This document shows, in pieces, positions 9,692 through 27,224 of a stretch of 29,393 nucleotides of DNA (position 1 is its first letter; every line of letters starts with the position of its first letter). The notes under the pieces were generated by a model. The model had not been told where the DNA came from. It searched no databases and saw only the letters and a list, made by a program, of their open reading frames with translations. Location of the stretch: the IMG/VR virus record IMGVR_UViG_3300046543_000098, positions 1 to 29,393 of that record. The stretch is one strand, 5' to 3'. The DNA is from a virus. Both the position numbers and the translations under genes were made by a program.

Positions 9692-9693
9692 GT

Positions 9694-10995: not shown

Positions 10996-11807
10996 GCGAC
11001 CGGGTAGGCAAGTCCGAACTTCACCGTCGAACCGCTCAGTTGAACATTCGTCACCCCGACGAGCGTAGTCGAGATGTCGAAGTTCGCCGTCTGCGTCGCC
11101 TTCACTGGCACCAGCACCACGCTAAGAGCAGCGTTCGTCGCAACGATGGCCGGAACTTCCGCGTAGCCAGTATTCGCTGCCACCACAGGAAGCCCGGTAA
11201 TGGACGCGGCGCTGCCGTCAATCGTCACAGGAAAATCCAAGGTTGCATAAGCGAAAACCATGTTTCCTATTCTTGTGAAGTTGGCCGATACGTTTGCGAA
11301 GATAAGTCCTGCGCCGCTGTTATCTGTCGGCGTCCAGCTCCCGATTGTCTGCGGCGCGATACTAAGCATCGTCACGGCCTGGCTTACCGTGAGATCGAGA
11401 GGATTAGCCGTTCCGCCCGTGTTGTTACCCTTTAGCGTCACGGTCGCCATCTGCGCGAGTTTCGAGTTCGATACCGCATTCGCGGTAATCGTGATCGCGC
11501 CAGAGGAGACCATCACAGCATCGCCGCTCATCGTCTTGTATGCCGAAGGCAATCCCGTTGCCCCGACGATGATCTGCCCGTTCAGCCCCTGCGCGAAGTT
11601 CGTGATTGGTAGCGCGCCAGAGACTGTCGTCGTGAGATCGACTTGCGTATACCCGGCACCGCCGCCGTGCAGCACCTGATTCACGCCGCCCACGACGCCA
11701 TTGCCGATGGTCGTAAAAAGGCTATTCAGGAATAGATACCACTCACGATTAACTAGGCCAGTCTTATCGACAAACGGACTCTTCGGAATCGGGATGCCGA
11801 AGTTCAA
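10992..11807 (-). CDS. Fibre- or needle-like tail protein following the gp10-like gene
   Basis: The 271-residue product opens with a short conserved-looking region (PIPKSPFVDKTGLVNREWYLFLNSLF), which I recall from podovirus tail proteins, followed by Gly/Thr/Val-rich beta repeats. These include a fibre motif near residues 124-144 (LKGNNTGGTANPLDLTVSQA) and a beta-sandwich-like C-terminus. It sits directly after the gp10-like gene with an ATGA overlap, the place of the P22 tail needle gp26. Unlike gp26 it is not a coiled coil, so it may be a fibre that replaces the needle. Confidence 0.6.
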   Translation of the reverse strand: MNFGIPIPKSPFVDKTGLVNREWYLFLNSLFTTIGNGVVGGVNQVLHGGGAGYTQVDLTTTVSGALPITNFAQGLNGQIIVGATGLPSAYKTMSGDAVMVSSGAITITANAVSNSKLAQMATVTLKGNNTGGTANPLDLTVSQAVTMLSIAPQTIGSWTPTDNSGAGLIFANVSANFTRIGNMVFAYATLDFPVTIDGSAASITGLPVVAANTGYAEVPAIVATNAALSVVLVPVKATQTANFDISTTLVGVTNVQLSGSTVKFGLAYPVA

Positions 11808-13264: not shown

Positions 13265-13560
13265 TAGCCGTTCAGGATCGTAAATGCCGGACCGACTACA
13301 GCGGCACCGAATGCCAATCCGATGCGCTTCTTGATGCTGGCTACCTCCTCCGGCGTAAGCTCGACCTCACTGCCTGTATGCACTTTTTGCGCGATCATGA
13401 ACCGCTGGAACTTTGACTCGCCATTCTCGTCGCTGTCTTGCTCAAGAATCGCCATCATTGCCTGGATAGTGGCGTCTTTCAGCGTGAGGTCTTCCTTATC
13501 GGCCTTTTTATGTGGCTGTCCGTCTAGGTCGCATAACGCTACCGCAAAATTTATTTTCAT
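13264..13560 (-). CDS. Small conserved phage tail-region protein
   Basis: The 98-residue product from ATG 13560 (AGGA four to five bases upstream) begins with a strand (MKINFAVALCDLDG), followed by a charged helical region and a Lys-rich, Gly/Ala-rich end (EVASIKKRIGLAFGAAVVGPAF). Small proteins of this plan occur in tail regions of many phages (from memory) without known function. A longer frame from 13659 would overlap the upstream fibre gene by nearly 100 bases and is rejected. Confidence 0.7.
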   Translation of the reverse strand: MKINFAVALCDLDGQPHKKADKEDLTLKDATIQAMMAILEQDSDENGESKFQRFMIAQKVHTGSEVELTPEEVASIKKRIGLAFGAAVVGPAFTILNG

Positions 13561-13564
13561 TGTC

Positions 13565-14449
13565 CTATCCGAAGAGAGCGATATAGCGTGTCGTGCCGGC
13601 TGCATTTTTGACAGACGCCCATTCCAGTATCGAGATGCCGGACGATGCCGGGCCGACATTACTCACAGTCACTGTCTGGCCGTTGTTGGCCGCAATGCCG
13701 GTCGTGCCGAACTTGACCTTTCCCTCGAAGAAGTTGTCAGCAGAACCCGATGCGTAAAAGCCGAATTTCCCTGTACCGCTCGACATCTGCGAACGGAAAG
13801 CGGCAGTAAGCGGAGCGCCTGCCGTCATGTTTCCAGTGTCGTAACCAATAGCTTCAGCTGTGATCCGCGTCGCATGGCCCAGATCGCCAGTGCGAAAGCC
13901 GTACATGCTAGCGATGGTTCCGCTGCCGTCCTGCAGGTCAACGTCTCCCGCGTGATAGACGGTTGCGGTATTGATCGATCCGCCCACGCCCTCATGGGCA
14001 ATGTGGAAGTCCAGAGCGCGCAGCGTCGTCACGCTCCCTACCGTGCTGCTCGAAAGCCCTAACCGCGCATACCCTTGAAGCGTTCTCGCAAAGATCGCGG
14101 TCCCTGCGGTATGACGCAGTTCCAGTTGCGGATTCAGAACTACCGTGTTGGTCGTACTCTCTGACCCTGACAACGTTACTTGCGATTGAATGCCTCGCAC
14201 GTCAGCAAGCCCGTTGCCGCTGCCGCTACAGGTCGTCAGTTGCTGCCGAGCCTGAGCCGATCCTGTCACCACGCCCATTGCCCGCAACTCGGTGATATTG
14301 CTCCCGAGCACCCATGTACCGCTACTGAGCACCGCAGGAGTAATTGACGAAAGCGGTATCTGTCTCGTCACGCCAGCTTGCATGATGGCGAGAATGTCGG
14401 CCGCTGCGGTTGGCACAGCCACCGGGAGCTGGTCGAATCTCAGGCCCAC
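13565..14449 (-). CDS. Fibre-like beta-rich structural protein
   Basis: The 294-residue product has a short N-terminal region (LRFDQLPVAVPTAAADILAI), a pattern common at the start of phage fibre proteins, then Ser/Thr/Gly/Ala-rich beta repeats including a phage-shaft-like segment (FYASGSADNFFEGKVKFGT near 228-246). The start is GTG at 14449 with GGAG seven bases upstream; it overlaps the previous gene by ten bases. Probably a second appendage or baseplate fibre; the partner is unknown. Confidence 0.65.
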   Translation of the reverse strand: MGLRFDQLPVAVPTAAADILAIMQAGVTRQIPLSSITPAVLSSGTWVLGSNITELRAMGVVTGSAQARQQLTTCSGSGNGLADVRGIQSQVTLSGSESTTNTVVLNPQLELRHTAGTAIFARTLQGYARLGLSSSTVGSVTTLRALDFHIAHEGVGGSINTATVYHAGDVDLQDGSGTIASMYGFRTGDLGHATRITAEAIGYDTGNMTAGAPLTAAFRSQMSSGTGKFGFYASGSADNFFEGKVKFGTTGIAANNGQTVTVSNVGPASSGISILEWASVKNAAGTTRYIALFG

Positions 14450-14712
14450 AAGTCGACTCCATTCTCGGTCACTAGTGTCACGCCGTTAGGATTGCCGACG
14501 CCAGGGCTTGTCATCAAGGCATCGCCGTCATAGAGCCACGGAAACTGTGCCTGATAAGACTCGAATTGCTGGATCGCGCGTCCTGATTCGATCAACGCCT
14601 TCGCTTGCGCCTCGCTGGTGATGGGAATGTTGGTCAGTGTCTTGTAGAACAGGCCGTCGATGGAGAACACCGAGAAGCCATTCATTTTCCCCACGCTCTG
14701 CGGTAACGACAT
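14440..14712 (-). CDS. Small protein with SGRA...QFPW domain
   Basis: The 90-residue product contains SEAQAKALIESGRAIQQFESYQAQFPW (about residues 33-59, written here only as a location guide; key residues SGRA, Tyr, QFPW). The same pattern occurs in the small protein at 24368-24559, so the two are paralogues. The remainder is Gly/Asn/Thr-rich. The ATG shares a base with the preceding stop (TGATG). Function unknown; position between the gp4-like and fibre genes suggests a virion role. Confidence 0.7.
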   Translation of the reverse strand: MSLPQSVGKMNGFSVFSIDGLFYKTLTNIPITSEAQAKALIESGRAIQQFESYQAQFPWLYDGDALMTSPGVGNPNGVTLVTENGVDLWA

Positions 14713-14891
14713 CAGCCGTTCAACCGTCTTACGAGCAGTGCGCCGTTCACCTTAAACCACTCCTCGAATTGCAGCTTTTCCGTAGGCGGTAGAAGTCCGT
14801 GCGCGATCTGCAGCGCGCTATCCTCGGTAAGTGGCACAGCGGCTCGCAGGGCGGCTTCGAGTGCGTCATGCAGGTTAATTGAAGCCTCCAT
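14712..14891 (-). CDS. 59-residue helical protein, tail region
   Basis: The product from ATG 14891 is helical and Leu/Ala/Glu-rich (LHDALEAALRAAVPL, KLQFEEWFKVNGALLVRRL). Translation overlaps the 3' end of the gp4-like gene by 17 bases; an upstream ATG at 14912 would extend it by seven residues. The stop shares a base with the next ATG. No family recognised. Confidence 0.6.
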   Translation of the reverse strand: MEASINLHDALEAALRAAVPLTEDSALQIAHGLLPPTEKLQFEEWFKVNGALLVRRLNG

Positions 14892-15834
14892 GCAAGATCC
14901 AGCCTGCATCATTGCCGCGCTTCACGGTGAGCACATCATCGAAGCGCACCGTCTGCAGCGGCTGCATGTTGGTGCGCTTGATCATTGCTCGTCCCGCCGC
15001 CGCCTGCGCCATAATCATCGCCATCTGTCCCTGATCTGCTTTCCCGAACTCAGGCATCAGCAGCTCGGCAAGACCAAAGCGCATAGCTAGGTTGTATCCC
15101 TGCGGCAACGCGATGGTGTCGGTTAGGGTCGAGAACTGGTTCAGGATCGAATCGCAGTACAGGTGCATCTCCGTAACCTGATTCGGATTCGGCCAGTAGT
15201 TGAGTACGCCCATCGGGAGCGACGGCTGGTAGTACACGCAGCGCGGCCACGGCCCGGTGAGCGTCTTGATGCCGATCATCTCGTAGTCTTCGAGATTGAT
15301 GACGGCGACCGGGTAATCGAGGCTACCGGCGACGGATGTCGTGACGCGCACGATGGCGCTATTGATGCGAAGCGGACGCGGAGCGAAACTCTGTAGCGTA
15401 CCGCTTGCGAAGGCGTTGGGCAGGTTGAGGAAGTACGTTCCTAGCGCTCCGGTGCTATTGCCGCCGGTAGCAGTGCCGTAGGACGTGATGGCAGTGCCTG
15501 TCGTCACGCCAGTTGCATTGATCAACTGCCCGACAGAAAGCGCCCCGGACGTGATGCCAGTGACGGTGAGCGTATTCACGGCGATAGAGCCGGTAAAAAC
15601 GCAGCCGACATCCGCCCCGGCTTGACCGATGGTGTAGATGTACTGCCCCGAAACAAGTTCGTGCATGACCTCCTGCACGGCGTAGACCATCATCTTCTGA
15701 TTGCTCCACTGATCGAGCATGTCGTTCAGCATGACGAAGCAATCGTTAGCGGTGTCAGAATCTGGTGCCTCACCGACAGCGAGCGCTCCGATGCTTCGCA
15801 GTGCTCCCTTGATGATGTCTAGCGGCTGCGTCAC
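14875..15834 (-). CDS. P22 gp4-like head-completion / tail adaptor with inserted domain
   Basis: The 319-residue product matches the P22 gp4-type tail accessory family: an N-terminal helical part (DIIKGALRSIGALAVGE, NDMLDQWSNQKMMVYAV), then YTIG near 67-70 and PRPLRINSA near 152-160. The rest is helical (NLAMRFGLAELLMPEFGK). The family protein binds the portal and begins the tail. Here about 75 residues of Gly/Thr/Val-rich beta sequence (about 76-150) are inserted between YTIG-QAGAD and PRPLRI, which normally adjoin. It is longer than P22 gp4 (166 residues). The start is GTG at 15834, directly after the preceding TAA. Confidence 0.75.
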   Translation of the reverse strand: MTQPLDIIKGALRSIGALAVGEAPDSDTANDCFVMLNDMLDQWSNQKMMVYAVQEVMHELVSGQYIYTIGQAGADVGCVFTGSIAVNTLTVTGITSGALSVGQLINATGVTTGTAITSYGTATGGNSTGALGTYFLNLPNAFASGTLQSFAPRPLRINSAIVRVTTSVAGSLDYPVAVINLEDYEMIGIKTLTGPWPRCVYYQPSLPMGVLNYWPNPNQVTEMHLYCDSILNQFSTLTDTIALPQGYNLAMRFGLAELLMPEFGKADQGQMAMIMAQAAAGRAMIKRTNMQPLQTVRFDDVLTVKRGNDAGWILHGGFN

Positions 15835-16041
15835 TTACGCTTGCTTCTTCAGCGAGAGCGTCGGGCGCTTACCCATCAGTTTCGATAGATGATCGAAGCC
15901 TTCCTTGACCTTGGCGTCCTCTTCGGCGGCACTTCGCACGGTGACGGATTCGACCTTGCGCGCATGGATGTCGTTCCCTAGCTGCTGGAAGTCATCGTAT
16001 TGCTGCGCGGACTTGTAAAGAACCTTCGGATAGTCGCTCAT
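15835..16041 (-). CDS. Small basic hydrophilic protein, tail region
   Basis: The 68-residue product from ATG 16041 (ATGA overlap with the previous stop) begins SDYPKVLYKS and ends in Leu/Lys-rich KRPTLSLKKQA. It is charged and helical in the middle. Small proteins of this look are frequent beside head-completion genes (from memory), but no function is known. A longer frame from 16119 would only overlap the upstream gene. Confidence 0.65.
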   Translation of the reverse strand: MSDYPKVLYKSAQQYDDFQQLGNDIHARKVESVTVRSAAEEDAKVKEGFDHLSKLMGKRPTLSLKKQA

Positions 16042-16724
16042 ACGGTGATGTTTCCCACTCCTGCGAGGTAGTTGATGATCGTTCTGCGCGTTGCAGCGTC
16101 GTGCGCCCCGGCATAGCAAATAGCCTCTTTGATCTTGATGTTCGTTGGCGATGCGCCAGCATTGCTAGCGCCAATTGTTAATCCGCCTGCGTTCCCCGCT
16201 CCAGCGGCGCCAGTTGTCGGTGCGTTGTTATTGACTTGGAACACGGAAGAATTGCCATTGAACACAGCGGCCACGACGCCGTAGAAACCAACAATTAAAT
16301 TCGCGTCGGTAGCTAAGTTAGTTCCTGCTGTCATTCCGATAGTCGGCGAGGCGACCCTCTGGAACACATCGCTGCTCGCCACAGTGCCGGCCGTGAGCCG
16401 GTTGCCGGCCCCCGTCCATGTCACTTGTTGCACGAGCATGTATTGCGTCGCCGGCTGATTCCAGGTAAATGTCGCTTGCAGGAAATCATCCGATCCATCG
16501 AAGAGAATCGACTTATCCGCCTGAAGTAGTGGCTGCAGCGTTCCGGTCGCTTGAACCTGATGGTTCCCGTTCCCGCTCTGATCAGCCCACCGTGAAACTC
16601 CAGTAGCGATAGTGATCCCTAAACCTAGGCGATACCACGCCACAGGTTTCAGGCCGGCGACTACGCCTGCGCCGGCAGAACCTACGTTCTGCGCGTTCCT
16701 GCGCCCCACGCCTACGTGAAGCAT
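16038..16724 (-). CDS. Lectin-like jelly-roll (LamG-type) virion protein
   Basis: The 228-residue product carries a concanavalin-like/LamG pattern: VAWYRLGLG (about 28-36), WADQSGNGNHQVQ (46-58), ILFDGSDDFLQATF (73-86) and later strands with Asn/Gly turns. These folds bind glycans or serve as decoration. Neighbouring genes are virion-type proteins, so it probably sits on the capsid or tail. The ATG shares a base with the preceding stop (TAATG). Confidence 0.65.
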   Translation of the reverse strand: MLHVGVGRRNAQNVGSAGAGVVAGLKPVAWYRLGLGITIATGVSRWADQSGNGNHQVQATGTLQPLLQADKSILFDGSDDFLQATFTWNQPATQYMLVQQVTWTGAGNRLTAGTVASSDVFQRVASPTIGMTAGTNLATDANLIVGFYGVVAAVFNGNSSVFQVNNNAPTTGAAGAGNAGGLTIGASNAGASPTNIKIKEAICYAGAHDAATRRTIINYLAGVGNITV

Positions 16725-17050
16725 TACAGCCCTTCGCCGGCTGTGATCTCGAAAGCGGCCAGAGCGTCGGCCTTGACCCAGCAGTTAGGCGGCAGCACCA
16801 CGGTCTCCACGCTCAAGCCCGCGAAGCCCATCGTGTTCGCCGATGGAATGTTTGCCGATGGTGCCAACACCGTAATAGCCGGCGGCGCGGAAGTCGTCGC
16901 CTGCGGAACCCAGCTCAGGTATTGCCGCGTGGAAAGAATGTTGTTCACGCGGTAACTCGTCGGCATCCCGCCGTCGCTCGTGGCGACCAAGACCGCCGTC
17001 GTGCCCACGAGAACGGTCGGGCCTGTAGGATGGAACGGGCCGTCGTACAT
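16724..17050 (-). CDS. Small beta-rich virion-type protein
   Basis: The 108-residue product from ATG 17050 begins MYDGPFHPTGPTVLVG and has alternating Val/Thr/Ser strands, a YLSWVPQ segment and SANTMGFAGLSVETVVLPPNCW near 70-91. Small proteins of this plan occur after coat genes in phages (from memory) and may decorate the capsid. It starts four bases after the preceding stop. A longer frame from 17197 is an artefact of overlap with that gene. Confidence 0.65.
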   Translation of the reverse strand: MYDGPFHPTGPTVLVGTTAVLVATSDGGMPTSYRVNNILSTRQYLSWVPQATTSAPPAITVLAPSANIPSANTMGFAGLSVETVVLPPNCWVKADALAAFEITAGEGL

Positions 17051-17054
17051 GGCT

Positions 17055-17387
17055 CTAGACGGCGTTCGAGGGCATCGGACCCTCGGCGCGCAGCACGTTG
17101 ATGTTGTACACCGCGCTCGCCGGAGTGAGCGCGCCAGCCGTGGCATTGGAGAATTCCAGCGTGAGCGTATTGGCCGCAGAGACGCGCGCATTGCCAATAC
17201 TCAGGCCTGCGGTCTGCGCCGAGTTGCAATTCACGTCCACGAAGTCATTGACCTGCAGCCCCTGGATCGTGAAGTTCTGCTCGACTGCAGTCGATGCAGC
17301 GACCGAAACCGGCGTGAGCGTTACTTGCAGCATCCCATCGTAGAGGATATTTCCGCGACCGATGGTGCTTGAGAGCATTCCTGGCAT
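17055..17387 (-). CDS. Single-module paralogue of the four-module beta-repeat protein
   Basis: The 110-residue product resembles module B (about 160-240) of the 484-residue protein at 18240-19694: VTLTP, VAAST(x)EQ-FT, GLQV, QTAGLSIGNARV, N-TLTLEFSN and TPASAVYNI line up in the same order. It is thus one stand-alone copy of that beta-sandwich module. AGGAG lies seven to eight bases before the ATG. A glycosyltransferase gene separates it from its multi-module relative. Likely decoration or fibre unit; function inferred. Confidence 0.7.
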   Translation of the reverse strand: MPGMLSSTIGRGNILYDGMLQVTLTPVSVAASTAVEQNFTIQGLQVNDFVDVNCNSAQTAGLSIGNARVSAANTLTLEFSNATAGALTPASAVYNINVLRAEGPMPSNAV

Positions 17388-17400
17388 GTCCGTTCTCCTG

Positions 17401-18192
17401 TTAAGCGGCTAGTTTTTCGATGGCTTCGAGCGTTGATGGGATGGGTTGCATTACCGGCATCGGCTTCAGTTCGACGGCGGCGTGCTTCTGCAGGAACTCG
17501 CAGAAGTTCCCGGTCCATGTCTTGCGGCCGATGTGAGACATGGTGACGTTAGGATCGAGCCAGAGCTTTTTTCCGAGCGCGCACCACTGCTTGCAGAAGA
17601 TCAGGTCTTCTCCCCAGAACTGCCCGATCACTGCTGGATCGGCGTCCCAGATGATCTTCGCATCGAAGAAGGCGTAATGCAGCTTGTGGTTCCCGCCATC
17701 ACCTGGCGAGTAGCGGCGCGGGTAGGCCTTCATCATCTTTTCGATGGCGCTCCGCTTGATGGCGAGGAAGCCGGAGCCGATCTGACTAATGCGAAGAAGG
17801 CCGTTCTCCACGAAGCAACGGCCATCAGGATCGGTATCCAGCAGCACGTTGTTGAACGTCTGGATGCCGTTCTCCATGTCCATTTTCTTTGGCACCGCTA
17901 CGCCGATGACCTCGTGCGGGTCTTGGATGATTCGCAGGACGGAGTTCTCATCCCACGCCTGATCATCGTCGATAAAGAGCAGGATGTCCGCCGGGTAGGG
18001 CGTTGACCACGTTTCTATAAAGGACTGAACGATTCCGTTTCGTGCTTTGGAGACGAAGGCATCCCCGCCGACGAAGCACGTATCGAGAAAGTGCCCGTGC
18101 TGCATGAGCAGGTTCATCGTCCTGATGAGGCTCATGCTGTATTCGACGGTCGGTACTCGCGCAAGCGTTGGGGTGCCTAGCATCACTCGCAT
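17401..18192 (-). CDS. GT-A fold glycosyltransferase
   Basis: The 263-residue product has an N-terminal nucleotide-binding part (MLGTPTLARVP), SKARNGIVQSF near 49-58, and LLFIDDDQAWD (71-81) whose Asp triplet is the metal/nucleotide-sugar DxD motif. GSGFLAIKRSAIEKM lies near 139-153. GEDLIFCKQWCALGKKLWLD (194-213) and a metal-ligand-type His220 are typical of GT-A family 2-like enzymes. It would transfer a sugar from a nucleotide-sugar; acceptor unknown. It lies inside the head gene block after a hairpin, so it may glycosylate virion proteins or alter host surface polysaccharide. No membrane segment. Confidence 0.8.
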   Translation of the reverse strand: MRVMLGTPTLARVPTVEYSMSLIRTMNLLMQHGHFLDTCFVGGDAFVSKARNGIVQSFIETWSTPYPADILLFIDDDQAWDENSVLRIIQDPHEVIGVAVPKKMDMENGIQTFNNVLLDTDPDGRCFVENGLLRISQIGSGFLAIKRSAIEKMMKAYPRRYSPGDGGNHKLHYAFFDAKIIWDADPAVIGQFWGEDLIFCKQWCALGKKLWLDPNVTMSHIGRKTWTGNFCEFLQKHAAVELKPMPVMQPIPSTLEAIEKLAA

Positions 18193-18213
18193 CTCGGAAG
18201 TCCCTTATAGAAA

Positions 18214-18231
18214 CTCCCCCTTCCGGGGGAG
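18214..18231 (-). terminator. Stable GNRA-loop hairpin before the glycosyltransferase gene
   Basis: Both arms are visible: CTCCCCC and GGGGGAG form seven pairs around a four-base loop, which on the - strand transcript is GGAA. TTTCTAT follows, a poor U-run. It lies in the 47-base gap between the 484-residue protein gene and the glycosyltransferase gene. It could be a partial terminator or an RNA-stabilising element. Confidence 0.5.
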
Positions 18232-18239
18232 GGTTGAGG

Positions 18240-19694
18240 TTAGAAGCCTTGGAACAGTCCGACGCCGGCCAACGTGTTTCGCATCTCGTTGGTCAAGGCA
18301 ACCGACTGCACGTTGAGCGGACTCACCATCTGCTGCACGTAGTGGCCCACCCCGAACTGCGGCTTGAACGCCGCCACCGTGTAAATCTCGTTCGGTACGA
18401 CGACCGATGCGTTGGTCGGATTCCCGAGCGTGATACCGATGGTGGAGCCTGCCGCAGCAACCGACGAGACGCGCATCCCGAGAACCGCAATACCGGTCGT
18501 GAAACTCGGCTTCGAGACGAACACCGCGCAGCTCACCGTGATGCCAGTCACCGTCACACCGATCTCCGTGCAGGTATTCGGCCCGATCACGCCCACCGGC
18601 ATCGTCGCCGGATAGACCGTCATTGGAGCCTCGCAGTTGTACCGGATCATTGGCAGGAGCCAGGTATCCGTCGAGATCGCAGTCACCGTGAACGGAGCAG
18701 CGCCGCTGATGCTGTTCAGGAATTTCAGGCTCAGTTGGTTCGGAACCTGAGTCGAAACCTGCGCGCCGATCAGTTGCGGAGCGACGCCGGTGATGGTGAT
18801 GTTGTTGAAGATGATGTCCTGCCCGATACCGATCACTTGGTCGAGTGGCTGGATGCCAGTCACCGTGATGTTCGTCGGCGTTAACGGCCCGAGCGAAGTC
18901 ACAGTCACGACAGTGCCACTCATGTTGATGCCCGCGATGACCATCGGCGAGATAGGCGCGATGCCAGCTAGCCCGGAGTACAGATACGCTTCCGAGCTTG
19001 GCGTGACAGCTGTGTTACCCGTGTTGATGAAGGTAACGCCGAGCACGTTGTTGCTGACCACGCGCGTGCCACCGATGCCCAAGCCGGTTTGGTCTGACGG
19101 CTTCGAGAGCGGCACCACCATCCCTGGCGCGAGACCCGTCACCGTGAATTGCTGCTCCATTGTGGTCGTCGCTGCGACCACTGCCGGGGTAAGGGTGACG
19201 GTATTGACGATGGAGCCGCGCAGCGCCGTGATGATGTACTGATCGCCGGTCGGGGTAGTCGTCGAAAGACCCGAGATGTTCAGGTTCGCGCCCATCAGCG
19301 TGAAGATGGCAGTGTTGATGGCCGGGGAAGAAGTCGAGACCCGGACATTCGCAATGCCGAACTGAGCGAGAGGAACCTGCTTGTTGACGAACGCGAGATC
19401 GGCGCTTGAGACCATCGGCGCGCCGGTCAGAGTGATGAACATCGAGCTAATGTTTTGCGCGGTGAGCGTCGGCTCTTTCTGCGAGTTCGACTGGAAGATC
19501 GTCAGGTAGCCCGCCGTCTGGGAGACCGTGATGATTTGTTGGAATGCGGATTGCCGTTGCGTTACCGCACCGCCGCCGTAGGGGTCTTGGTAGAACCCGA
19601 GGGGCGAAGCAGAGGAAACGCCGAGGTAGGCAGGACCGCCGCCACCGCCAATGGGGTGCTCGGTGACTGAGGATGCAGGGCCAGGATTTGGCAT
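18240..19694 (-). CDS. Four-module beta-repeat virion-type protein (decoration or fibre)
   Basis: The 484-residue product has a Gly/Pro-rich N-terminus (about 1-50) and then four related beta modules at about 85-157, 160-240, 262-340 and 376-441, each with TVTG(L/I), Gly-rich, RV-S and (T/V)P-x-E-x-Y type elements. A C-terminal part follows (about 445-484: GHYVQQMVSPLNVQ, NTLAGVGLFQGF). The strongest pair is with the stand-alone protein at 17055-17387. AAAGGAG precedes the ATG by about seven bases. Placed directly after the coat gene, so an abundant capsid decoration protein is the likeliest role. Confidence 0.65.
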   Translation of the reverse strand: MPNPGPASSVTEHPIGGGGGPAYLGVSSASPLGFYQDPYGGGAVTQRQSAFQQIITVSQTAGYLTIFQSNSQKEPTLTAQNISSMFITLTGAPMVSSADLAFVNKQVPLAQFGIANVRVSTSSPAINTAIFTLMGANLNISGLSTTTPTGDQYIITALRGSIVNTVTLTPAVVAATTTMEQQFTVTGLAPGMVVPLSKPSDQTGLGIGGTRVVSNNVLGVTFINTGNTAVTPSSEAYLYSGLAGIAPISPMVIAGINMSGTVVTVTSLGPLTPTNITVTGIQPLDQVIGIGQDIIFNNITITGVAPQLIGAQVSTQVPNQLSLKFLNSISGAAPFTVTAISTDTWLLPMIRYNCEAPMTVYPATMPVGVIGPNTCTEIGVTVTGITVSCAVFVSKPSFTTGIAVLGMRVSSVAAAGSTIGITLGNPTNASVVVPNEIYTVAAFKPQFGVGHYVQQMVSPLNVQSVALTNEMRNTLAGVGLFQGF

Positions 19695-19706
19695 TTGTCG
19701 TCTCCT

Positions 19707-20963
19707 TTAAGACGTGACGCGGGTGCCCAGCTCTTGGTAGAGCGGTGCCCAGCCGTAGAGCACATCCAGTCGAGTCGGGATGGCGTCGTTGTTGATCGTG
19801 TACTGACGGACGACACGAATGGAAAGCCCGATTTCCTTATCCGAGGCTCGGCCCGCGAAATGCACGCCTTCCGGCAGTTCCAAGTCTGCGACGGCGAGCG
19901 TGTAGGCGTTGCGATGGAAGAGGATGTTCTGCGGCGCGGTGATGGCGTTCGCAGTGCCAGTGGCAAGCGAGGAAGCCGTAACCGCAGCGCCAGCACCGGG
20001 CGCGGCACTGACGTTCTGGAACTGCCCGCCTGAGATCACGGCCGGCGACACAACCACGTTGAAGTTACCCGCGCCTGTCTGCGTGACAGTCGAGGTAACG
20101 ACGAAGTTGCGGGTCCGGTTCTGACCGTAGGGCTGGCGGTTTTGCGGGTTGACTGGCTGCACTGCCGCGAACTGGATCACGTCTCCCTGGTTCAGCGTCA
20201 GCGTCTGAGTCGTCGCCAGGCTGATCGTGGAAGTAGCGGCCCAGCCGGTAGCGAGACCTTGGTTCGCGCCGTTAACCGTCAGAGCGCCGGCAACCGTTGC
20301 CCACGATCCGAAGGTCTGCGAAACGACGTTCTGGTCCATCTTCCAGTTCATCCCGCCTGAGTCGCGGCCCATCAGCCCTTTGCGATACTGCTCGGAGAGC
20401 TGGCTGTCGGGCACGAAAAGACCCTTCAGGGCATCGACGATGGTCGCGGAGGTGAAAGGCTCGATCACGACGCAGCGCTTGCCGTCGCGCGGCGCACCCT
20501 CGGAGTCGAGGAGCGCCTGCGCCTGCAGGTAGGTGAGTAGGCCGGTGGGCGGGGTGCCGACAGTGCCGATGATGTTGGCGGTGTTGTTCTTCGCCATCAC
20601 CAGGCCGTCGCGGTCCACCTTGTTTGCGATGGCCGCAACGCATGGCTTCAGCACCCGGTCGCTGAACATATCGAGCGAGAGCGCGAGGTCTTGCGTGGTG
20701 AACTGCGTGTCGACGTGGAACTGAGTCGTGAGAACGACGGGGACGGAGGTCTCGTTAAAGTCCTCCACGTTGAGCGCTGGGCCGGTCGTGCCGATGAATC
20801 GCCCCGGACGGCGGACGTTCACGGTGTTACCGATCTTTGCGCCCACGACTGCGAACTGATCGTCGTACTCCCGATTCACTTCGGAAGTGAACGTCAGCTC
20901 GTTTTCCAGAACCATCAACGCTTCGTTGGTGATCTTGGAAATGGTGAGCAGCGTGTTAGCCAC
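19707..20963 (-). CDS. Major capsid protein, P22 coat (gp5) family
   Basis: The 418-residue product begins ANTLLTISKITNEALMVLENELTF and contains GNTVNVRRPGRF, LSLDMFSDRVLKPCVAAIANKVD, and late beta segments (QTLTLNQGDVIQFA, NPQNRQPYGQ), as in the P22 coat family with an HK97 fold and an inserted domain; P22 gp5 is 430 residues. It forms the icosahedral shell around the scaffold. It follows the scaffold gene in the usual order. The start is GTG at 20963 with GGAG eight bases upstream. Confidence 0.85.
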   Translation of the reverse strand: MANTLLTISKITNEALMVLENELTFTSEVNREYDDQFAVVGAKIGNTVNVRRPGRFIGTTGPALNVEDFNETSVPVVLTTQFHVDTQFTTQDLALSLDMFSDRVLKPCVAAIANKVDRDGLVMAKNNTANIIGTVGTPPTGLLTYLQAQALLDSEGAPRDGKRCVVIEPFTSATIVDALKGLFVPDSQLSEQYRKGLMGRDSGGMNWKMDQNVVSQTFGSWATVAGALTVNGANQGLATGWAATSTISLATTQTLTLNQGDVIQFAAVQPVNPQNRQPYGQNRTRNFVVTSTVTQTGAGNFNVVVSPAVISGGQFQNVSAAPGAGAAVTASSLATGTANAITAPQNILFHRNAYTLAVADLELPEGVHFAGRASDKEIGLSIRVVRQYTINNDAIPTRLDVLYGWAPLYQELGTRVTS

Positions 20964-20992
20964 AATGTTTCTCCATGAGGTTTAGAAAAGGT

Positions 20993-21011
20993 GCGCCCGT
21001 AAAGACGGCGC
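20993..21011 (-). promoter_or_regulatory. Hairpin in the scaffold-coat intergenic gap
   Basis: On the - strand GCGCCGT pairs with ACGGGCGC (one bulged G) around a CTTT loop. It lies in the 122-base gap between the scaffold stop and the coat start, followed by GCACCTTTTCT. It could be a weak terminator, a processing site or an RNA-stability element that raises coat expression. No promoter is obvious in the gap and no other gene was found there. Confidence 0.4.
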
Positions 21012-21085
21012 TTCTCTGGGCCTGCGGCTCATGGACCCTGCACGGATGTGCCCTGCTTAACGCCCAGGTAGGCGACCCTTGCGGG

Positions 21086-22039
21086 TTAATGAATCTTTCC
21101 TGCCTTGCGTAGCGCCTTCCACTGCGCGTAGGTGCCGACATACTCACCCTGCGCATTGACCGGCGCTTCTAGCGGAGCCGATGCGCCCTTGAGTGGGTTA
21201 ATCGGTGCCGGTGCTTTCGAGATTTCTACCTCCGGTGCCTTCGGTTCGGCTTTCGGCTCGGCCTTGGGCGCTCCCTTGAGGTACTTCTCTTCGAGCTTGC
21301 CTATTTCCTTCAGCGCTCGCACTGCCGACATCCTGCCAAGCGCCTCTGCTTCTGCCTTGTTTTCTGCAAGATGCAACAACATGCGCGGCCCGACTTCTGA
21401 GTCGAGGATCGCGTCTCTCACATATGGCGCGACTTGGACCGGCGAGGCATCTATCTTCTCGGCAAAGTCAGGGACCGACTGCTTGATCGCAGTGACCTTC
21501 TCTGCCCAGGACGCTAGCACCTTCGTTTCCTCTGCCTTCGCTGTTGCTTCGCGCTGTTCCTTGTCGCGCTCGGCGAGCCGCACGTCGACACGGTGATCGA
21601 CTAGCGCCTTGCCGAACTCTTCGTCGTTGGCGAACTGCTCACGCTTTGGCTCTGTTGGTGCGTCCTTCGCCGGAGGGTTGAGCTTCGCTCGAAGATCGGC
21701 TGCTTCCCGCTCTGCTTTGTCGGCGCGCTCTTTCTCCTTGGCGGTTTCCGCCCGCGCTGCTTCGCGCTGCTGCGTCAGCTCGGAAAAGCGCTCCTTGATG
21801 GGATGCGTCTTCTCCTTCGGTTCCGCTTTCGGTTCTTCCTTCTTCGGTTCCTCGGCTTTCGGCTCGGCCTTGACCGGCTCGGCTTCGACCTTCGGTTCCT
21901 CTGCAACCACCACCGGCTCTGCGCTTTCCGCCTTCTGCGGCGCTGCGATATCCAGTTTCTTGTTCATGAACTCTGCCCGGTTCTCGCTCGTCACAACGAC
22001 GGTCGACGGACGCGGCTCTACCTGCTGTGCTTCTGGCAT
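21086..22039 (-). CDS. Scaffolding protein
   Basis: The 317-residue product is very hydrophilic and helical. An N-terminal Lys/Glu/Pro repeat region (about 45-80, repeated EPKAE-type units) is followed by a coiled coil (about 85-120), a central helical part and a short basic C-terminal segment (YAQWKALRKAGKIH). That C-terminus resembles the coat-binding helix-turn-helix end of P22 gp8 (303 residues). It lies between portal and coat genes, the standard place. It would guide coat assembly and leave before packaging. GAGGGATC precedes the ATG by about ten bases. Confidence 0.8.
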   Translation of the reverse strand: MPEAQQVEPRPSTVVVTSENRAEFMNKKLDIAAPQKAESAEPVVVAEEPKVEAEPVKAEPKAEEPKKEEPKAEPKEKTHPIKERFSELTQQREAARAETAKEKERADKAEREAADLRAKLNPPAKDAPTEPKREQFANDEEFGKALVDHRVDVRLAERDKEQREATAKAEETKVLASWAEKVTAIKQSVPDFAEKIDASPVQVAPYVRDAILDSEVGPRMLLHLAENKAEAEALGRMSAVRALKEIGKLEEKYLKGAPKAEPKAEPKAPEVEISKAPAPINPLKGASAPLEAPVNAQGEYVGTYAQWKALRKAGKIH

Positions 22040-22084: not shown

Positions 22085-24184
22085 TTACTGCAAAGTCGGT
22101 TCGGTCTCGGCGGACTTCGCCTCTAGCTGCTTGTCCTGCATGTTTACCTGATGCTCGAAAGTGGCAAGCAGTTCGCGCATCTTGTTCCCATGTTCGGTAT
22201 GGCTCGTCAAGATACGAACGATGCCATTGATCTCCGCGACGTTCTGGGCGGTGAGCGCGAAGACCTCGCTATCGTGCTGTTTCTGCGAACGCACTACTTC
22301 TCGCTCGTGCGCGTCGTTCGTCTCCTTCATCAGCGCCCGCTTCGTCGCGCCCTCTTCTTTCATCTGCTGGATGCCTTGGCGAGACTTCAACTCAATGCCC
22401 ATCGCCTGCATCTGCTGGCCTGCGTCCTGAAGCTGCTTCTGCAGCCCCTTGATCATCATCTGCACGCGCGGCGGAATGTCGGACTTCTCATCGATCTGCG
22501 CTAGCGGGTTGATCGCCGCCAGCCGATCAGCAATGACCTCCGCGCCGGGGAAATCCATATTCCTGAAGAGCAGGTCGCCGATCTGCTGCCAGAGCTGCGG
22601 GTTCCCCTGCAGCATCGTGGAAATCGCTTCGACCGACTCCTGCCGCTTCGTATTGAAGCCGGGCCCTGTATCCATCACTACGTCATACTCGGCCACCGTC
22701 ACATCGTTCTTGATTCTCTCAGCGCCGCTTTCTTGGTCAGCGCCTTTCTCGTTCAGTGTCACCATCGACGGCTTCCCATCGTCGCCGATGATGCGCGTCA
22801 TGCGCTGCACGTCATAGATCGTCGGCACCCAGCCGAGGATGATGCGCGCCCCGTGCTTTATCGAGCGAGTCAGGTTGTCGAAGTAGTTGTAATTCGTCTC
22901 TTCGGTCTGCATCGCCTCGCCGCGAATCGCCTTCCCGGACATCGGTCCAGGGTTACGCATCTGCGGGTCGTACACGCCGAGAACTCGCTTCAGGTTCTCG
23001 CTCGCAATCATCGCGTTCTGCAGTGCTGCTGCGTCCACTTGTGCAGGCTCTATCCTGATGGGCGGCGGTACTGGCTTGCCGTCCACATCCGTTGCCTTGT
23101 AGCGAAGCACCGGGTAGGCACTTACATTCGCGCGGGCGAACTCGTTCTCATGGCCTTCGTCCTGCCCTTCAGCGATCAGCCATTTAGCCTTCGGTGCCAT
23201 GCCAGCGCCCTCGGTGAGCGCCGTCTGCCAGAAGTTCACCATCGTCTGCGGGTCGCGCGCAAAGCGCACGAGGCCGAATCTCTTGCGCTTCCCGTCGAGT
23301 ACCACCTGTACGCCATACACCGGGATCACAGGAATGTAGCGCCCAGGAATGATCTTCTCTTCGAGAATCTCGAAGCCAGACTGCTTGCACCACTTCACCT
23401 TGCGCTTCCAACTCGGTCGAGTTCCCTTGATCGTTATTCCTGCCAACTCCAGCACCTGAGACGGCGGAAGGTCAGAGCCGTAAACCGTGGTCCCGTCCGA
23501 GAGCGTTACCAACTCGGCCTTGATACGGTCGACGTACATATACTCGGCAAGGCGGATGTCGTCTTTCGTCACCCACTCCTGCATGATCTCGCCCGAGCCC
23601 GTCTCGCGGAACCCTTGGTCCTGCGCGCCCGGATACGTCTTCCTGAATGCTTCCTTCCTCATCAAGTCTGTGATAAGGCACTTCTCTGAATCCGAGCCGT
23701 CAGGCTGCGCGCTGTTCGGGTCGAAGTACACCGTGAACGGATTCTCGATCTGGCCGACGTAGATGTCTTGATCGTTGGAATCGTCGCGCACGTAATCCGT
23801 GTAAAGCCTGAAGTAGCCGCGCCCCATCGTGACCGCGAAGGAGAACGCGAGATCGTAGGCGTTGTCGGCATCCGAGTTCACCTCGATATGGCGACACAGC
23901 CCTTTCAGCACCTTCGCTACCTCGACCGTCGCGCGCGACCCGGTAGGGTGCGGATTCATGCGCGGTCTTTGCTGGCGCTGCTGGTTCTCGATCTTCCTGA
24001 TGTATGCGTCGGTCTCGTTGATCGTGAGCGCCGGGCGACTTTCCAGCTTCCGGCTATTCACGATCTCCGCAGGCCACTGATCTCCGTAGCGGAAGCGCAA
24101 GTCCTGTTCTGCCTCGGAACGGTCGTTACTTTCCGCCTCTGTGACTAGCCGCAGGAAGTCGACTGCATCTTCGTGGCTAGCCAT
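22085..24184 (-). CDS. Portal protein, P22 gp1 family
   Basis: The 699-residue product from ATG 24184 (P22 portal: 725) shows the P22-type portal plan. The N-terminal region has RYGDQWPAEI, RPALTINETDAYIRKIENQQRQQRP and later FTVYFDPNSAQPDGSD. The clip/stem region has IPVIPVYG and ASENLKRVLGVYDPQMRNPG. The C-terminal part (about 560-699) is a long Gln/Lys/Glu-rich helical barrel-type tail. The dodecameric ring is the DNA entry and exit point and docks terminase. Its start overlaps the stop of the preceding gene by eight bases. Confidence 0.9.
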   Translation of the reverse strand: MASHEDAVDFLRLVTEAESNDRSEAEQDLRFRYGDQWPAEIVNSRKLESRPALTINETDAYIRKIENQQRQQRPRMNPHPTGSRATVEVAKVLKGLCRHIEVNSDADNAYDLAFSFAVTMGRGYFRLYTDYVRDDSNDQDIYVGQIENPFTVYFDPNSAQPDGSDSEKCLITDLMRKEAFRKTYPGAQDQGFRETGSGEIMQEWVTKDDIRLAEYMYVDRIKAELVTLSDGTTVYGSDLPPSQVLELAGITIKGTRPSWKRKVKWCKQSGFEILEEKIIPGRYIPVIPVYGVQVVLDGKRKRFGLVRFARDPQTMVNFWQTALTEGAGMAPKAKWLIAEGQDEGHENEFARANVSAYPVLRYKATDVDGKPVPPPIRIEPAQVDAAALQNAMIASENLKRVLGVYDPQMRNPGPMSGKAIRGEAMQTEETNYNYFDNLTRSIKHGARIILGWVPTIYDVQRMTRIIGDDGKPSMVTLNEKGADQESGAERIKNDVTVAEYDVVMDTGPGFNTKRQESVEAISTMLQGNPQLWQQIGDLLFRNMDFPGAEVIADRLAAINPLAQIDEKSDIPPRVQMMIKGLQKQLQDAGQQMQAMGIELKSRQGIQQMKEEGATKRALMKETNDAHEREVVRSQKQHDSEVFALTAQNVAEINGIVRILTSHTEHGNKMRELLATFEHQVNMQDKQLEAKSAETEPTLQ

Positions 24185-24371
24185 GCCCCGGCTCGAAATC
24201 TGATGCGTGGAAGCCTTGGAAGTTACGGTACGCCGTCGCCGACACAACCATACGCTTCGCCGCCATCTCGGTGCTGTCGCGGTTGCCGGCCTTCGCTATC
24301 TGGTGGAAGTTCTCCCACTTAGCGAAGAAGTCGCGCAGCAATTCCAGCTCCGCATTGATCTGTTCGCTCAT
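24177..24371 (-). CDS. Small helical protein between terminase and portal
   Basis: The 64-residue product from ATG 24371 (ATGA overlap) is helical and charged (EQINAELELLRDFFAKWENFHQIAK), with a second helical part (STEMAAKRMVVSATAYRNFQGFH). It may help portal assembly by position, but nothing in the sequence proves it. The last eight bases overlap the portal start. Confidence 0.65.
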   Translation of the reverse strand: MSEQINAELELLRDFFAKWENFHQIAKAGNRDSTEMAAKRMVVSATAYRNFQGFHASDFEPGHG

Positions 24372-24559
24372 TTCGGCGGCTTCGTCCACGGGAACTGATC
24401 AGCATAGGTCTTCACTTGCGGCGTAGCCCTCCCGCTCGCTACCAATTCTGCCGCTTCCTTCGTGGAAATGCGCTGCCCCGGAGGAACTGCCGAAGTGACG
24501 TATTCCACTCCTCCGACAGTGAAGATGGCCTTGTTCCCGCTCACGCCTCGGTTACTCAT
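24368..24559 (-). CDS. Small SGRA...QFPW protein next to terminase
   Basis: The 63-residue product from ATG 24559 (ATGA overlap with the terminase stop) has a strand-rich start (KAIFTVGGVEYVTSAV), then a helical/turn motif with ASGRA, a Tyr and DQFPW, as in the product of 14440-14712. So the phage carries two copies of this small domain, one near packaging genes and one in the tail region. Function unknown. Confidence 0.7.
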   Translation of the reverse strand: MSNRGVSGNKAIFTVGGVEYVTSAVPPGQRISTKEAAELVASGRATPQVKTYADQFPWTKPPK

Positions 24560-25971
24560 GCCTGCCATCCTCCTGATTGCACGATCTGGGGCCGCACGAG
24601 CGGCTTCGCCGCAGGGCGGATATGTTCAAGGCCGCGCCCGATCAGACTGAAGACATCGACCGCATCGTCAAGCTTCCCGGCCGGAAACTGCAGCAGTTGC
24701 TTCTCGACCTCTGCCCGCCACGGCGAATGCCGAGGCCATACGATGCTTTTCGTCGATGCTAGCGCCTGGATCGAGCGGGCGCGCTCTGTCTTCTTCGCCA
24801 GCGACGGCAACCACTCCAGCCTGCAAAATGCGCGCCTGTCGCTGATTCGCTTCATGAGGAATGGCTCAATCGCCCGGCGGATCGGCCCACCCTCGCCAAA
24901 CCAGCATTCCGGGTGATGCGCGACGATGAGATCGCATTGCTTCTCGATCCATACGTCGGATTGGGTCTGCCCTCGCCACCAGTCGAGCACGTAAAGATTC
25001 ATGTTCGTGTCGACGCCGAAAACACCGTGCTCGGTCCAGTCGCCAGCACCATCGAGCGTCGCGTAGTCCGATGCGCCGTAGATGCGCAGCGCCGGAATCT
25101 GGTCGTATTCGCTGAACCAGTCGCGCTTGAAGTAATCGCCCTCGTCAGGAACCGGGTCTTGCTGATACAAAGCGTTCCAGCTCCTCGTGTCTAGTTTCGC
25201 TGTGGCGATCATTTCCTCGGTGAACCACTCAGGCCACAGCCGCTCGCCAGGTTGGCGTCCGAGAACATCGTCGGCAACGGCGAGCATCGGAATCTTTATC
25301 ACGCGCCACTGATCGGCCTCGCGCGCGAGAATGCGCCCGCCGAGGTCGTCCTCGTGCCAGCGGGTCTGAATCAAAATCTGCCGAGCGCCGGGCTTTAACC
25401 GCGTGAGAAAGTCGTTCAAGTACCAATCCCAATGGGTCTGCCTCACCCGCTCCGAGTCGGCCTCTTGCCTCGTCTTGATCGGGTCATCGATAAGGCCTAG
25501 ATCAGCCCGGCGACCGGCAATCGCCGCTCCCATACCGGCGGCGAAGAATTCACCCCCTTTCTCGGTTTCCCAATTACCAGCGGCGGCGGAATCCTCCGAC
25601 ACGCCGAATCCGAAAATGCGCCTGAAATCCTGCCCGCCGACGATATTCCGCACGCGGCGCGAGAAGCGCTCGGCAAGTTCCGTGGTGTTCGATACCCCGA
25701 GCACCGAGTGCTCCATGTTCCTGCCCATGAACCAAGGCGGGAAGAGGATCGAGCTGTAGGTCGACTTCGCACTGCCTGGCGGCATGAAGACCATGAGCTT
25801 TCGCACATCGCCCCGCTCTACCGCTTCCAGCTCCCGCATCAGCCGCTCGTGATGCGCGGCGAACTCGTACCCGAACCCTAGCGACTCAATGAAGCTGCGA
25901 AGGCTTTTCCTCGCTGTCCGTCGAAGCAACAACTCCTTCGCTGCTTCCTGCCGCGATGTCTGCAAGCTCAT
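24556..25971 (-). CDS. terL: Large terminase subunit (packaging ATPase and nuclease)
   Basis: The 471-residue product has a Walker A-type loop (PPGSAKST at 64-71), Walker B (LGLIDDP at 158-164), coupling motif (QTRW, 202-205), the linker LYQQDPVPDEGDYF (268-281), and a nuclease domain with acidic clusters at SDYATLDGAGD (301-311) and GKLDDAVD (432-439). This is the phage terminase motor that pumps DNA into the procapsid through the portal and cuts it. It is the typical length. The first 86 bases of the gene overlap the end of the small-terminase gene. Confidence 0.92.
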   Translation of the reverse strand: MSLQTSRQEAAKELLLRRTARKSLRSFIESLGFGYEFAAHHERLMRELEAVERGDVRKLMVFMPPGSAKSTYSSILFPPWFMGRNMEHSVLGVSNTTELAERFSRRVRNIVGGQDFRRIFGFGVSEDSAAAGNWETEKGGEFFAAGMGAAIAGRRADLGLIDDPIKTRQEADSERVRQTHWDWYLNDFLTRLKPGARQILIQTRWHEDDLGGRILAREADQWRVIKIPMLAVADDVLGRQPGERLWPEWFTEEMIATAKLDTRSWNALYQQDPVPDEGDYFKRDWFSEYDQIPALRIYGASDYATLDGAGDWTEHGVFGVDTNMNLYVLDWWRGQTQSDVWIEKQCDLIVAHHPECWFGEGGPIRRAIEPFLMKRISDRRAFCRLEWLPSLAKKTERARSIQALASTKSIVWPRHSPWRAEVEKQLLQFPAGKLDDAVDVFSLIGRGLEHIRPAAKPLVRPQIVQSGGWQA

Positions 25972-26221
25972 CGTCGCTCAGTTCCTTGGTCGGGCGCGTA
26001 ACGCGCATGTCGAGCTGCTGTGTGGGCTTACCATCAAGCCGATCAGCGAGAAATTGTATTGCCCACTCTTCGCCAGCGCGGGCGAGCGCGTAGACCTTTT
26101 CCGCAATATCGCGCAGACCCTTCGCGCTGTCCTGCGCGATGACGCGCTCAAGCGCTGCGAGGAACTGCTTCTGCTTGACGACGCCATGCGGATTACCGGA
26201 TTGCCCTGGCTTAAACGGCAT
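25886..26221 (-). CDS. Small terminase subunit candidate (DUF5681-like)
   Basis: The 111-residue product begins MPFKPGQSGNPHG, the hallmark of the DUF5681 group, found ahead of large terminases. A helical middle (about 18-60), DRLDGKPTQQLD and an acidic C-terminal helix (ELSDDELADIAAG) follow. GGAGGAG precedes the ATG by about seven bases. Small terminases recognise the packaging site. Its 3' end overlaps the large-terminase gene by 86 bases, an unusually long overlap in which both frames look genuine. Assignment from family and position. Confidence 0.7.
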   Translation of the reverse strand: MPFKPGQSGNPHGVVKQKQFLAALERVIAQDSAKGLRDIAEKVYALARAGEEWAIQFLADRLDGKPTQQLDMRVTRPTKELSDDELADIAAGSSEGVVASTDSEEKPSQLH

Positions 26222-26222
26222 T

Positions 26223-26486
26223 TCAGCGCTCCTCCACGAAGCACACATCGGCCTCGGCAAGCACGAGGAAGCGCTCCCCGTTCGCGGCCTGCCATTCGGG
26301 ATACGTAAGGTAGCCCTCATCGGTGCCGAAGCGGATGCGATCACCGACGCGAACGCTATCGGCCTTTGGGCCGCAGGCGACCACTTCGCCGAGATTGTAC
26401 TTCTCGGCGTTCACCACGACGATAACCTCGCTCGCTTTCCGCTCAAGCGGTCGAACGACGAGACGGTCTCGAAGAGGGCGAAGCAT
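26223..26486 (-). CDS. GroES-like co-chaperonin (Cpn10)
   Basis: The 87-residue product fits Cpn10: PLRDRLVVRPL at the start, then GEVVACGP (33-40), VRVGDRIRFG (45-54), and GERFLVLAEADVCFVEE at the end. Cpn10 rings cap GroEL; phage versions such as T4 gp31 adapt the chamber for coat folding. The segment that should form the mobile loop (about 17-32, ASEVIVVVNAEKYN) is short and lacks the GGIVL pattern, so GroEL binding would depend on a VIVVV stretch. No GroEL gene is in the window. Next to terminase genes, a role in head assembly is likely. Start overlaps the previous stop (TGATG). Confidence 0.8.
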   Translation of the reverse strand: MLRPLRDRLVVRPLERKASEVIVVVNAEKYNLGEVVACGPKADSVRVGDRIRFGTDEGYLTYPEWQAANGERFLVLAEADVCFVEER

Positions 26487-26719
26487 CAGCCCTTCTTGTG
26501 CGTGTAGCAGGTCGACTCCGTGCGGCCGGTGTTGTACTCGCCCTTCTCGTGCCCGCCGTTCGAGCGCCCGGTCGCATCTGCCTTGCCCATGCCGACGCCG
26601 TTCACGGTGCCCTTCGATTTCGCGCCGCTCTTGTCGGACGAAGTAGCGCCGGCAGGTTCCTTCTCGCCGGATTCGTGCCGCGTGCCTTCGTTCGCGCCTG
26701 GATAGCCCTTGTTTGGCAT
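26486..26719 (-). CDS. First late gene: small disordered Gly/Lys/Ser-rich protein
   Basis: The 77-residue product is low in complexity (Gly, Lys, Ser, Glu, Asn) with no hydrophobic core and ends in GRTESTCYTHKKG. Similar short proteins occur near terminase genes in Burkholderia-type phages (from memory), without known role. AGGAG lies seven bases before the ATG. It is the first gene after the late promoter and terminator. Confidence 0.65.
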   Translation of the reverse strand: MPNKGYPGANEGTRHESGEKEPAGATSSDKSGAKSKGTVNGVGMGKADATGRSNGGHEKGEYNTGRTESTCYTHKKG

Positions 26720-26729
26720 TTCGTGCTCC

Positions 26730-26762
26730 TAGAAAAGAAAAAGCCCGAGGGGAATCGGGCTT
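26730..26762 (-). terminator. Intrinsic terminator in the late leader (tR'-like)
   Basis: On the - strand AAGCCCGA and TCGGGCTT pair perfectly (eight pairs) around TTCCCC, and TTTCTTTTCT follows. It lies between the strong promoter at 26828-26856 and the first late gene, about 60-90 bases after the expected transcript start. Such a site would stop most transcripts unless an antiterminator acts. Confidence 0.85.
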
Positions 26763-26799
26763 GAAAAGGCGACGCGAGTATGGCTAGGGGGAAAGAGGA

Positions 26800-26814
26800 G
26801 GACGCGCGTCGTCC
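26800..26814 (-). promoter_or_regulatory. Small hairpin at the start of the late leader
   Basis: GGACG-ACGCG-CGTCC on the - strand forms five G/C-rich pairs in roughly the first 8-22 transcribed bases. It could help pausing or polymerase loading of the antiterminator. Seen in sequence; role speculative. Confidence 0.35.
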
Positions 26815-26827
26815 GCAACGGATGTGA

Positions 26828-26856
26828 TTTGTAGGCTAAAGCGTTACGGCTGTCAA
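26828..26856 (-). promoter_or_regulatory. Strong sigma70-type promoter for the late operon (pR'-like)
   Basis: On the - strand a perfect TTGACA (26856-26851) is followed by 17 bases and TACAAA (26833-26828), four of six matches to the -10 consensus. Transcription would start near 26821 and read toward the terminase genes. The -35 box overlaps the stop codon of the Q-like gene, the same placement as pR' after Q in lambdoid phages. Confidence 0.8.
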
Positions 26857-27224
26857 GCATCGCCGAGCACTACGCCCCTCTGGCGAAGGCGAGGAACCAT
26901 CTCTTCCTCTGCCTCGTCGCACAGCCGGCGCAGCTCTTCGCGCGTCGACTTTGGTCCGGTAAGTGTTTCATTTAGATAGTATTGCCGCACCGCAGCCCGC
27001 TTTCTCGGCGGCAGGCTTTCTACCTCGGCATCGATGGCTCGCAGGATGAAGGAATCTACATTCGGATCGGCGTCGTCGCAGTTCCACGCTGGTGTAGGTG
27101 TCATGACCCCGAGCCAAGCGACGGAGGACGGGAAGCCGAGCGGCGCTCGCCACGCCCGGACCCATCCACGCCACGCGCGCAGGTAGTAGCGCAGCTCTTC
27201 GAGGGAGCGAGACATGACCCTCAT
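26853..27224 (-). CDS. Q-like late antiterminator
   Basis: The 123-residue product from ATG 27224 (ATGA overlap, AGGTG four bases upstream) has an Arg/Trp-rich N-terminus (LRYYLRAWRGWVRAWR), a Gly-Phe-Pro-Ser turn and a Trp-Leu segment. A sigma-region-4/helix-turn-helix-like part (VESLPPRKRAAVRQYYL) and a C-terminal helical part follow. This pattern fits phage antitermination protein Q of the Phage_antitermQ type. The Q class binds DNA in the late promoter and rides on RNA polymerase past terminators. The gene lies just upstream of a strong promoter and a terminator, the context of Q. Without a search the family call is moderate; context raises it. Confidence 0.75.
   Translation of the reverse strand: MRVMSRSLEELRYYLRAWRGWVRAWRAPLGFPSSVAWLGVMTPTPAWNCDDADPNVDSFILRAIDAEVESLPPRKRAAVRQYYLNETLTGPKSTREELRRLCDEAEEEMVPRLRQRGVVLGDA

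Follow-up and report, generated by a model that had tools for sequence, protein, structure and literature searches.

A probable phage 21-type, Q-dependent switch for the late genes of an uncultivated phage

Gene order and transcription signals ahead of the late genes

The window, i.e., the whole 29,393-nt stretch of DNA analyzed here (IMG/VR record IMGVR_UViG_3300046543_000098), contained a ~24-kb block of packaging, head, tail, and lysis genes on the - strand. A promoter-like site and an intrinsic terminator, ~65 bases apart, were both located between this late block and a small gene encoding a Q-like protein (Table 1). For the 77-aa product of the first late open reading frame (ORF), no significant family match was obtained in library searches. 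In the window and in most of the relatives L003 to L026, a GroES-like gene directly preceded the terminase genes, which would place it near the start of the late block. Upstream of the Q-like gene, genes for a methyltransferase (27221-27847) and an acetolactate-synthase-like TPP enzyme (28106-29383, cut by the contig end) were identified, which are unusual phage cargo. Further, an RNA ligase-like gene was found at the left end of the window on the opposite (+) strand (103-798).

Table 1. Positions of the transcription signals and genes at the late-gene junction and in the late block (window coordinates)
Feature	Position	Strand	Evidence or remarks
Q-like protein gene, 123 aa	26853..27224	-	ATG overlaps methyltransferase stop; profile homology; AF2 model
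-35 element TTGACA	26851..26856	-	Sequence; best promoter-like site of the window
-10 element TACAAA	26828..26833	-	Sequence; 17-bp spacer to -35
Predicted leader RNA, ~91 nt	26731..26821	-	Start inferred from promoter spacing
Leader hairpin	26768..26814	-	26811-26805 with 26776-26770; 26814-26813 with 26769-26768
CATACT, candidate -10-like (sigma pause) motif	26777..26782	-	Sequence; ~+40
Intrinsic terminator stem-loop, tR'-like	26741..26762	-	U-rich tail to 26731
First late ORF, 77 aa, low-complexity	26486..26719	-	AGGAG at 26730-26726; ATG at 26719
GroES-like co-chaperonin	26223..26486	-	PF00166, E 6e-6; phrog_3188; conserved upstream of TerL in relatives
Small terminase-like ORF (DUF5681)	25886..26344	-	Family match, synteny; true start probably inside
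Terminase large subunit (TerL)	24556..25971	-	phrog_38, E 6e-93
P22-like portal protein	22085..24247	-	PF16510, E 1e-156
Rest of late block	2856..22039	-	PHROGs: scaffold, major head protein, Hc3-like connector, ejection, tail fibre, Rz-like spanin

The promoter-like site overlapped the end of the Q-like gene, whose stop codon TGA (26855-26853) lies inside the -35 hexamer TTGACA (26856-26851). When scored with a sigma-70 matrix, the frequencies of which were approximate and taken from general knowledge, TTGACA-17-TACAAA was the highest-scoring site on either strand of the whole 29-kb window, and only one other site likewise matched 10 of the 12 consensus positions. The next best site on the - strand scored 9.0 and was inside a gene at 9285, and the window scan detected no promoter-like - strand site of comparable score downstream near the first late genes. 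Judging from promoter spacing, transcription would start at ~26821, the normal 7 bases past the -10 element. A simple scanner reported no promoter at this position; its result was rejected, since its rule required a -10 element ending in T and the element here ends in A. A -10 element ending in A, such as TACAAA, is weak for sigma-70, which counts against reading the locus as a switch. A search for direct repeats near the promoter, covering the -35 to -10 interval where a Q binding element would be expected, returned only chance-level repeats. The pairs at 26853/26825 and 26809/26779 were rejected as such an element, being at chance level in 100 bases.

The terminator stem (AAGCCCGA/TCGGGCTT) consisted of eight perfect pairs (26762-26741) enclosing the loop TTCCCC, was followed by the tail TTTCTTTTCT, and corresponded to +60 to +81 of the predicted leader. 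It was the best terminator-like site of the whole window on either strand, with a folding energy of -12.2 kcal/mol for the stem alone and a predicted pair probability of 0.76-0.89 within the leader. The first late ORF begins 12 bases past the terminator tail, so its expression from the promoter requires transcription to continue beyond the terminator, and this position ahead of the first late gene makes readthrough the natural control point. The layout given in the original prediction, TTGACA-17-TACAAA on the - strand at the 3' end of the Q-like gene followed by a perfect eight-pair terminator and the late block, was confirmed by the sequence and the window scans. Another good terminator-like hairpin (CTCCCCC-GGAA-GGGGGAG; 18231-18214, - strand) was found between late genes. 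Late transcripts would also have to pass this site, which fits a processive antiterminator.

The predicted leader RNA folded better than shuffled sequences (z -3.9). It had been proposed to carry a GC hairpin of its own; this hairpin (26814-26800, -7.3 kcal/mol) does exist and was predicted to form earlier in transcription, in short transcripts, but in the full leader it gave way after ~55 bases to the longer helix 26811-26805/26776-26770. The two 5' helices were mutually exclusive in folding and neither overlapped the terminator stem. The leader hairpin may act in pausing or protect the RNA. An attenuator was rejected because no structure in the leader competed with the terminator stem. In an Rfam scan of the leader, no family reached its cut-off, and the matches to RF02278, ar14, and Trp-leader were dismissed as terminator look-alikes far below the cut-offs. 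No -10-like pause motif was found at ~+6 to +25 of the leader, the sole candidate being CATACT, 46-51 bases past the -10 element. In relatives, CATA-type or similar -10-like motifs were seen by eye ~13-30 bases past the -10 element (~+6 to +25).

Homology and predicted fold of the Q-like protein

The Q-like protein had been described as small, basic, and Trp-rich. It contained 5 Trp, but as a whole it was not basic (pI 7.8; 19 K/R and 18 D/E), and the description as basic applied to its first 45 residues alone (pI 11.6). Direct searches of Pfam, PHROGs, NCBIfam, PDB sequences, and a phage collection returned no relative, and PF06530 (Phage_antitermQ) gave no match up to an E-value of 1. Positional homologues scored 18-21 bits against PF06530, for which the cut-off is 26 bits, and a PF06530 search over viral records gave weak matches only. 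The comparison with antiterminator families advised in the original prediction thus produced no direct Phage_antitermQ match, and homology was recovered through leave-one-out profiles, as described below. As the protein is below the family cut-off, it is referred to as a distant homologue and not as a curated PF06530 member.

Relatives were found by a TerL search, and in several of them the gene ahead of GroES encoded a small protein whose N-terminal part contained a W..W motif. Weak matches to PF06530 or phrog_79 (anti-termination protein Q-like) were given by the proteins in the Q position of several relatives, and in most cases these matches spanned nearly the full length. With a leave-one-out profile of 16 homologues encoded beside TerL, the Q-like protein was the top ORF of the window (13.9 bits, E 2.6e-4; next 0.71). 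A second profile, of 25 Q-type proteins and again without the window protein, was obtained by adding PF06530 loci of Burkholderiales together with the proteins of VarioGold and Aval. Against this profile, the Q-like protein scored 21.7 bits, with an E-value of 1e-6 among window ORFs (next 0.81) and 8.9e-5 when the ORFs of all loci were taken together, and the best of 2,000 shuffled Q-like sequences reached 10.7 bits. Residue W18 was invariant and W21 nearly invariant in the 16 homologues. The N-terminal W..W was followed by a G[FY]xS-like segment, and the window protein had LGF..S in common with the PF06530 members L214 and L217. In the helix-turn-helix (HTH) region, the stretch between YY and the conserved Ala in the last helix measured 22 residues, in contrast to 27 in PF06530 members.

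The AlphaFold (AF2) model of the Q-like protein (pLDDT 80.6, pTM 0.72) contained three helices after residue 58, and its C-terminal half was predicted to resemble sigma region 4. Foldseek ranked phage 21 Q (21Q) first, with a weak E-value of 0.89. In VIA-align, ranks 1-7 were occupied by all seven phage 21 Q entries (Z 7.0-8.3; 98-107 of 123 residues aligned), and sigma region 4 entries followed behind at Z 6.2 or less. Such Z-scores alone are modest for a helical protein, but the profile and the model together support 21Q homology. On this combined sequence and model evidence, the 123-aa protein is a distant Phage_antitermQ/21Q homologue that is detectable through intermediates.

Recurrence in relatives and comparison with known systems

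The order of Q gene, promoter, short leader, and terminator was repeated in relatives from Variovorax, Acidovorax, and Burkholderiales phages. It was seen in the Variovorax prophage L127, in phages VarioGold and Aval, at a PF06530 locus (L217) of a Burkholderiales genome, and on several viral contigs. The Q homologue of VarioGold is annotated as 'antiterminator Q protein'. The strongest -10/-35 pair near each Q-like gene end was compared with those at the ends of 146 other ORFs of the same loci, and promoter-like sites were enriched at the Q-like ends (Fisher combined p 3e-11, Mann-Whitney 8e-11). A strong terminator followed within 330 bases at 12 of the 30 Q-type genes, compared with 9 of the 162 control ORFs (p 2.8e-6). 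Some loci are closely related, and the p-values for promoters and terminators are therefore both optimistic. The clearest terminators had offsets of +121 (L127, Variovorax sp. JS1663), +109 (L187), +123 (L203), +95 (L205), +115 (L206), +64 (Aval), +254 (VarioGold), and +62 (L217).

Near the Q ends of the relatives, L024 carried exactly TTGACA-17-TACAAA, L021 TTGACT-17-TACACA, and L019 TTGACT-17-TAATAA. The nearest TerL relatives with Q-like genes (L016, L018, L019, L021, L024) all had promoter-like sites near the Q end, and no strong terminator was found within 330 nt of their Q genes. In L191, L199, and L200, an extra ORF lay between Q and the promoter, and promoter, leader, and terminator were shifted together as a unit, so the conserved element is this unit and not the Q coding end. 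The small ORFs between Q and the late promoter of L191, L194, L199, and L200 overlapped the Q stop and differed from one another, which would suit a favoured position for cargo genes.

With starts inferred, leaders beside PF06530-type Q genes measured from roughly 75 nt (Aval, L217) to 130 nt, with a longer one in VarioGold, and ~75-130 nt was the usual range (Aval, L217, L205, L127, L187, L203). A leader of ~91 nt is thus ordinary, and the proposal that its shortness may point to a different mechanism was not supported. In phage YA3, promoter and terminator are reported to be 224 bases apart (PMC7326022). The leaders of L127, L187, L195, L197, L191, L194, L199, L200, L203, and L206 had in common GCA(T/C)A(G/A), a GGAGGCGG block that preceded the terminator and was invariant, and, in most members, TGAGC soon past the -10 element. 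The last motif resembles the 21Q binding site TGAGCA (PMC6606751).

Among known systems, the window was compared with the Q/PR'/tR' region of phage 21 (PF06530). Both have a small all-helical Q with a sigma-4-like C-terminal half (predicted for the window protein) encoded directly upstream of the late promoter, with an intrinsic terminator soon after and then the late genes. However, aligned identity to 21Q was ~16%, the HTH of the window protein was five residues shorter than in PF06530 members, and the window lacked both a directly repeated TGAGCA in the -35 to -10 interval and a pause motif in the first transcribed bases. VarioGold (Variovorax) and Aval (Acidovorax) likewise have a Q homologue and a promoter-like site overlapping the Q stop, followed by a terminator 254 and 64 bases past this stop, respectively. 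Their promoters were of the form TTTAC[AG]-16-TA[GC]ATT, an HNH gene (plus terminase in Aval) comes next, in contrast to GroES in the window, and there was little sequence identity. The well-known Q/pR'/tR' system of lambda shares the overall logic, whereas its leader is longer (194 nt, the figure of the original prediction, versus ~91) and the window protein lacks a Pfam match. In the AlpA/PalpB/tB system of Pseudomonas (PMC9371919), an HTH antiterminator is loaded at the promoter and an intrinsic terminator lies downstream; it differs in controlling chromosomal lysis genes and in the two extra helices of AlpA relative to 21Q, and no match was seen.

Proposed late switch and alternative readings

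The best promoter and the best terminator of the window, the homology of the Q-like protein, and the recurrent order make a late switch well supported at the sequence level. The succession of Q-like gene, late promoter, early terminator, and late block put forward in the original prediction gained support from homology, predicted fold, and recurrence in relatives. We consider it probable that the locus works as a phage 21-type switch by which the late genes depend on Q. Host RNA polymerase would start at the promoter overlapping the Q-like gene end, make the ~91-nt leader, and halt at the intrinsic terminator, which would keep the packaging, head, tail, and lysis block off. Once the early transcript had yielded enough Q-like protein, Q would join the polymerase near the promoter and, at the RNA exit channel, block hairpin formation, so that the polymerase would pass the tR'-like terminator and later ones. 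Start site, termination, and Q loading are inferred, as is this nozzle mechanism, which is taken from 21Q (PMC6606751). That this is the sole late switch for the block is plausible from the window sequence.

In a possible but rather doubtful variant of Q antitermination, a Q with a partly lost DNA-reading HTH and without the usual early sigma pause would be loaded at a displaced site (~+10 to +45), with either the leader hairpin or a pause in a shifted position as the means of loading. The lack of a direct library match, the chance-level repeats, the short HTH, the displaced CATACT, and the terminator-less relatives also count against the phage 21-type switch; the last three may reflect either variation in mechanism or the limits of motif scanning.

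An alternative is that the terminator just ends the early transcript after Q, with TTGACA fortuitous and the late genes served by another promoter, host or phage-specified, in or after the first late ORF. Some relatives do lack a strong terminator past Q, so this element is not universal, and sigma-70 scans are blind to other promoter types. Nevertheless, the best promoter of the window is upstream of the terminator, no comparable - strand site was found near the first late genes, and the promoter-like sites enriched at Q-like ends recurred with the terminator as a unit; this alternative is therefore unlikely. Much less probable still, the leader RNA itself might control readthrough as an attenuator or put-like RNA, with an active 5' hairpin and a dispensable Q-like protein, as its better-than-shuffled fold and mutually exclusive 5' helices might suggest; against this, neither helix overlaps the well-paired terminator stem, no Rfam family reached its cut-off, and a Q homologue adjoins the leader. 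The sigma-region-4-like half of the Q-like protein would suit an initiation activator at the promoter, but such a role in place of antitermination is very improbable, as the antiterminator 21Q has the same half (PMC6606751) and activation alone would not get past the terminator.

The Q-dependent switch appears to be of a type already known, located in a phage lineage where it was previously unrecognized and with a Q too divergent for present libraries. It would give an uncultivated lineage of P22-portal, GroES-carrying phages an on/off control of late genes that can be tested, and would extend 21Q-type antiterminators past detection by Pfam, PHROGs, and NCBIfam models. For Variovorax, Acidovorax, and other Burkholderiales phages, the recurrent unit of Q, promoter, short leader, and terminator also offers a simple means of finding late promoters. 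In two of the relatives, tRNA-like genes were detected directly past the late terminator (L205:3518-3577 and L206:3134-3224), which may be phage tRNAs or prophage junctions.
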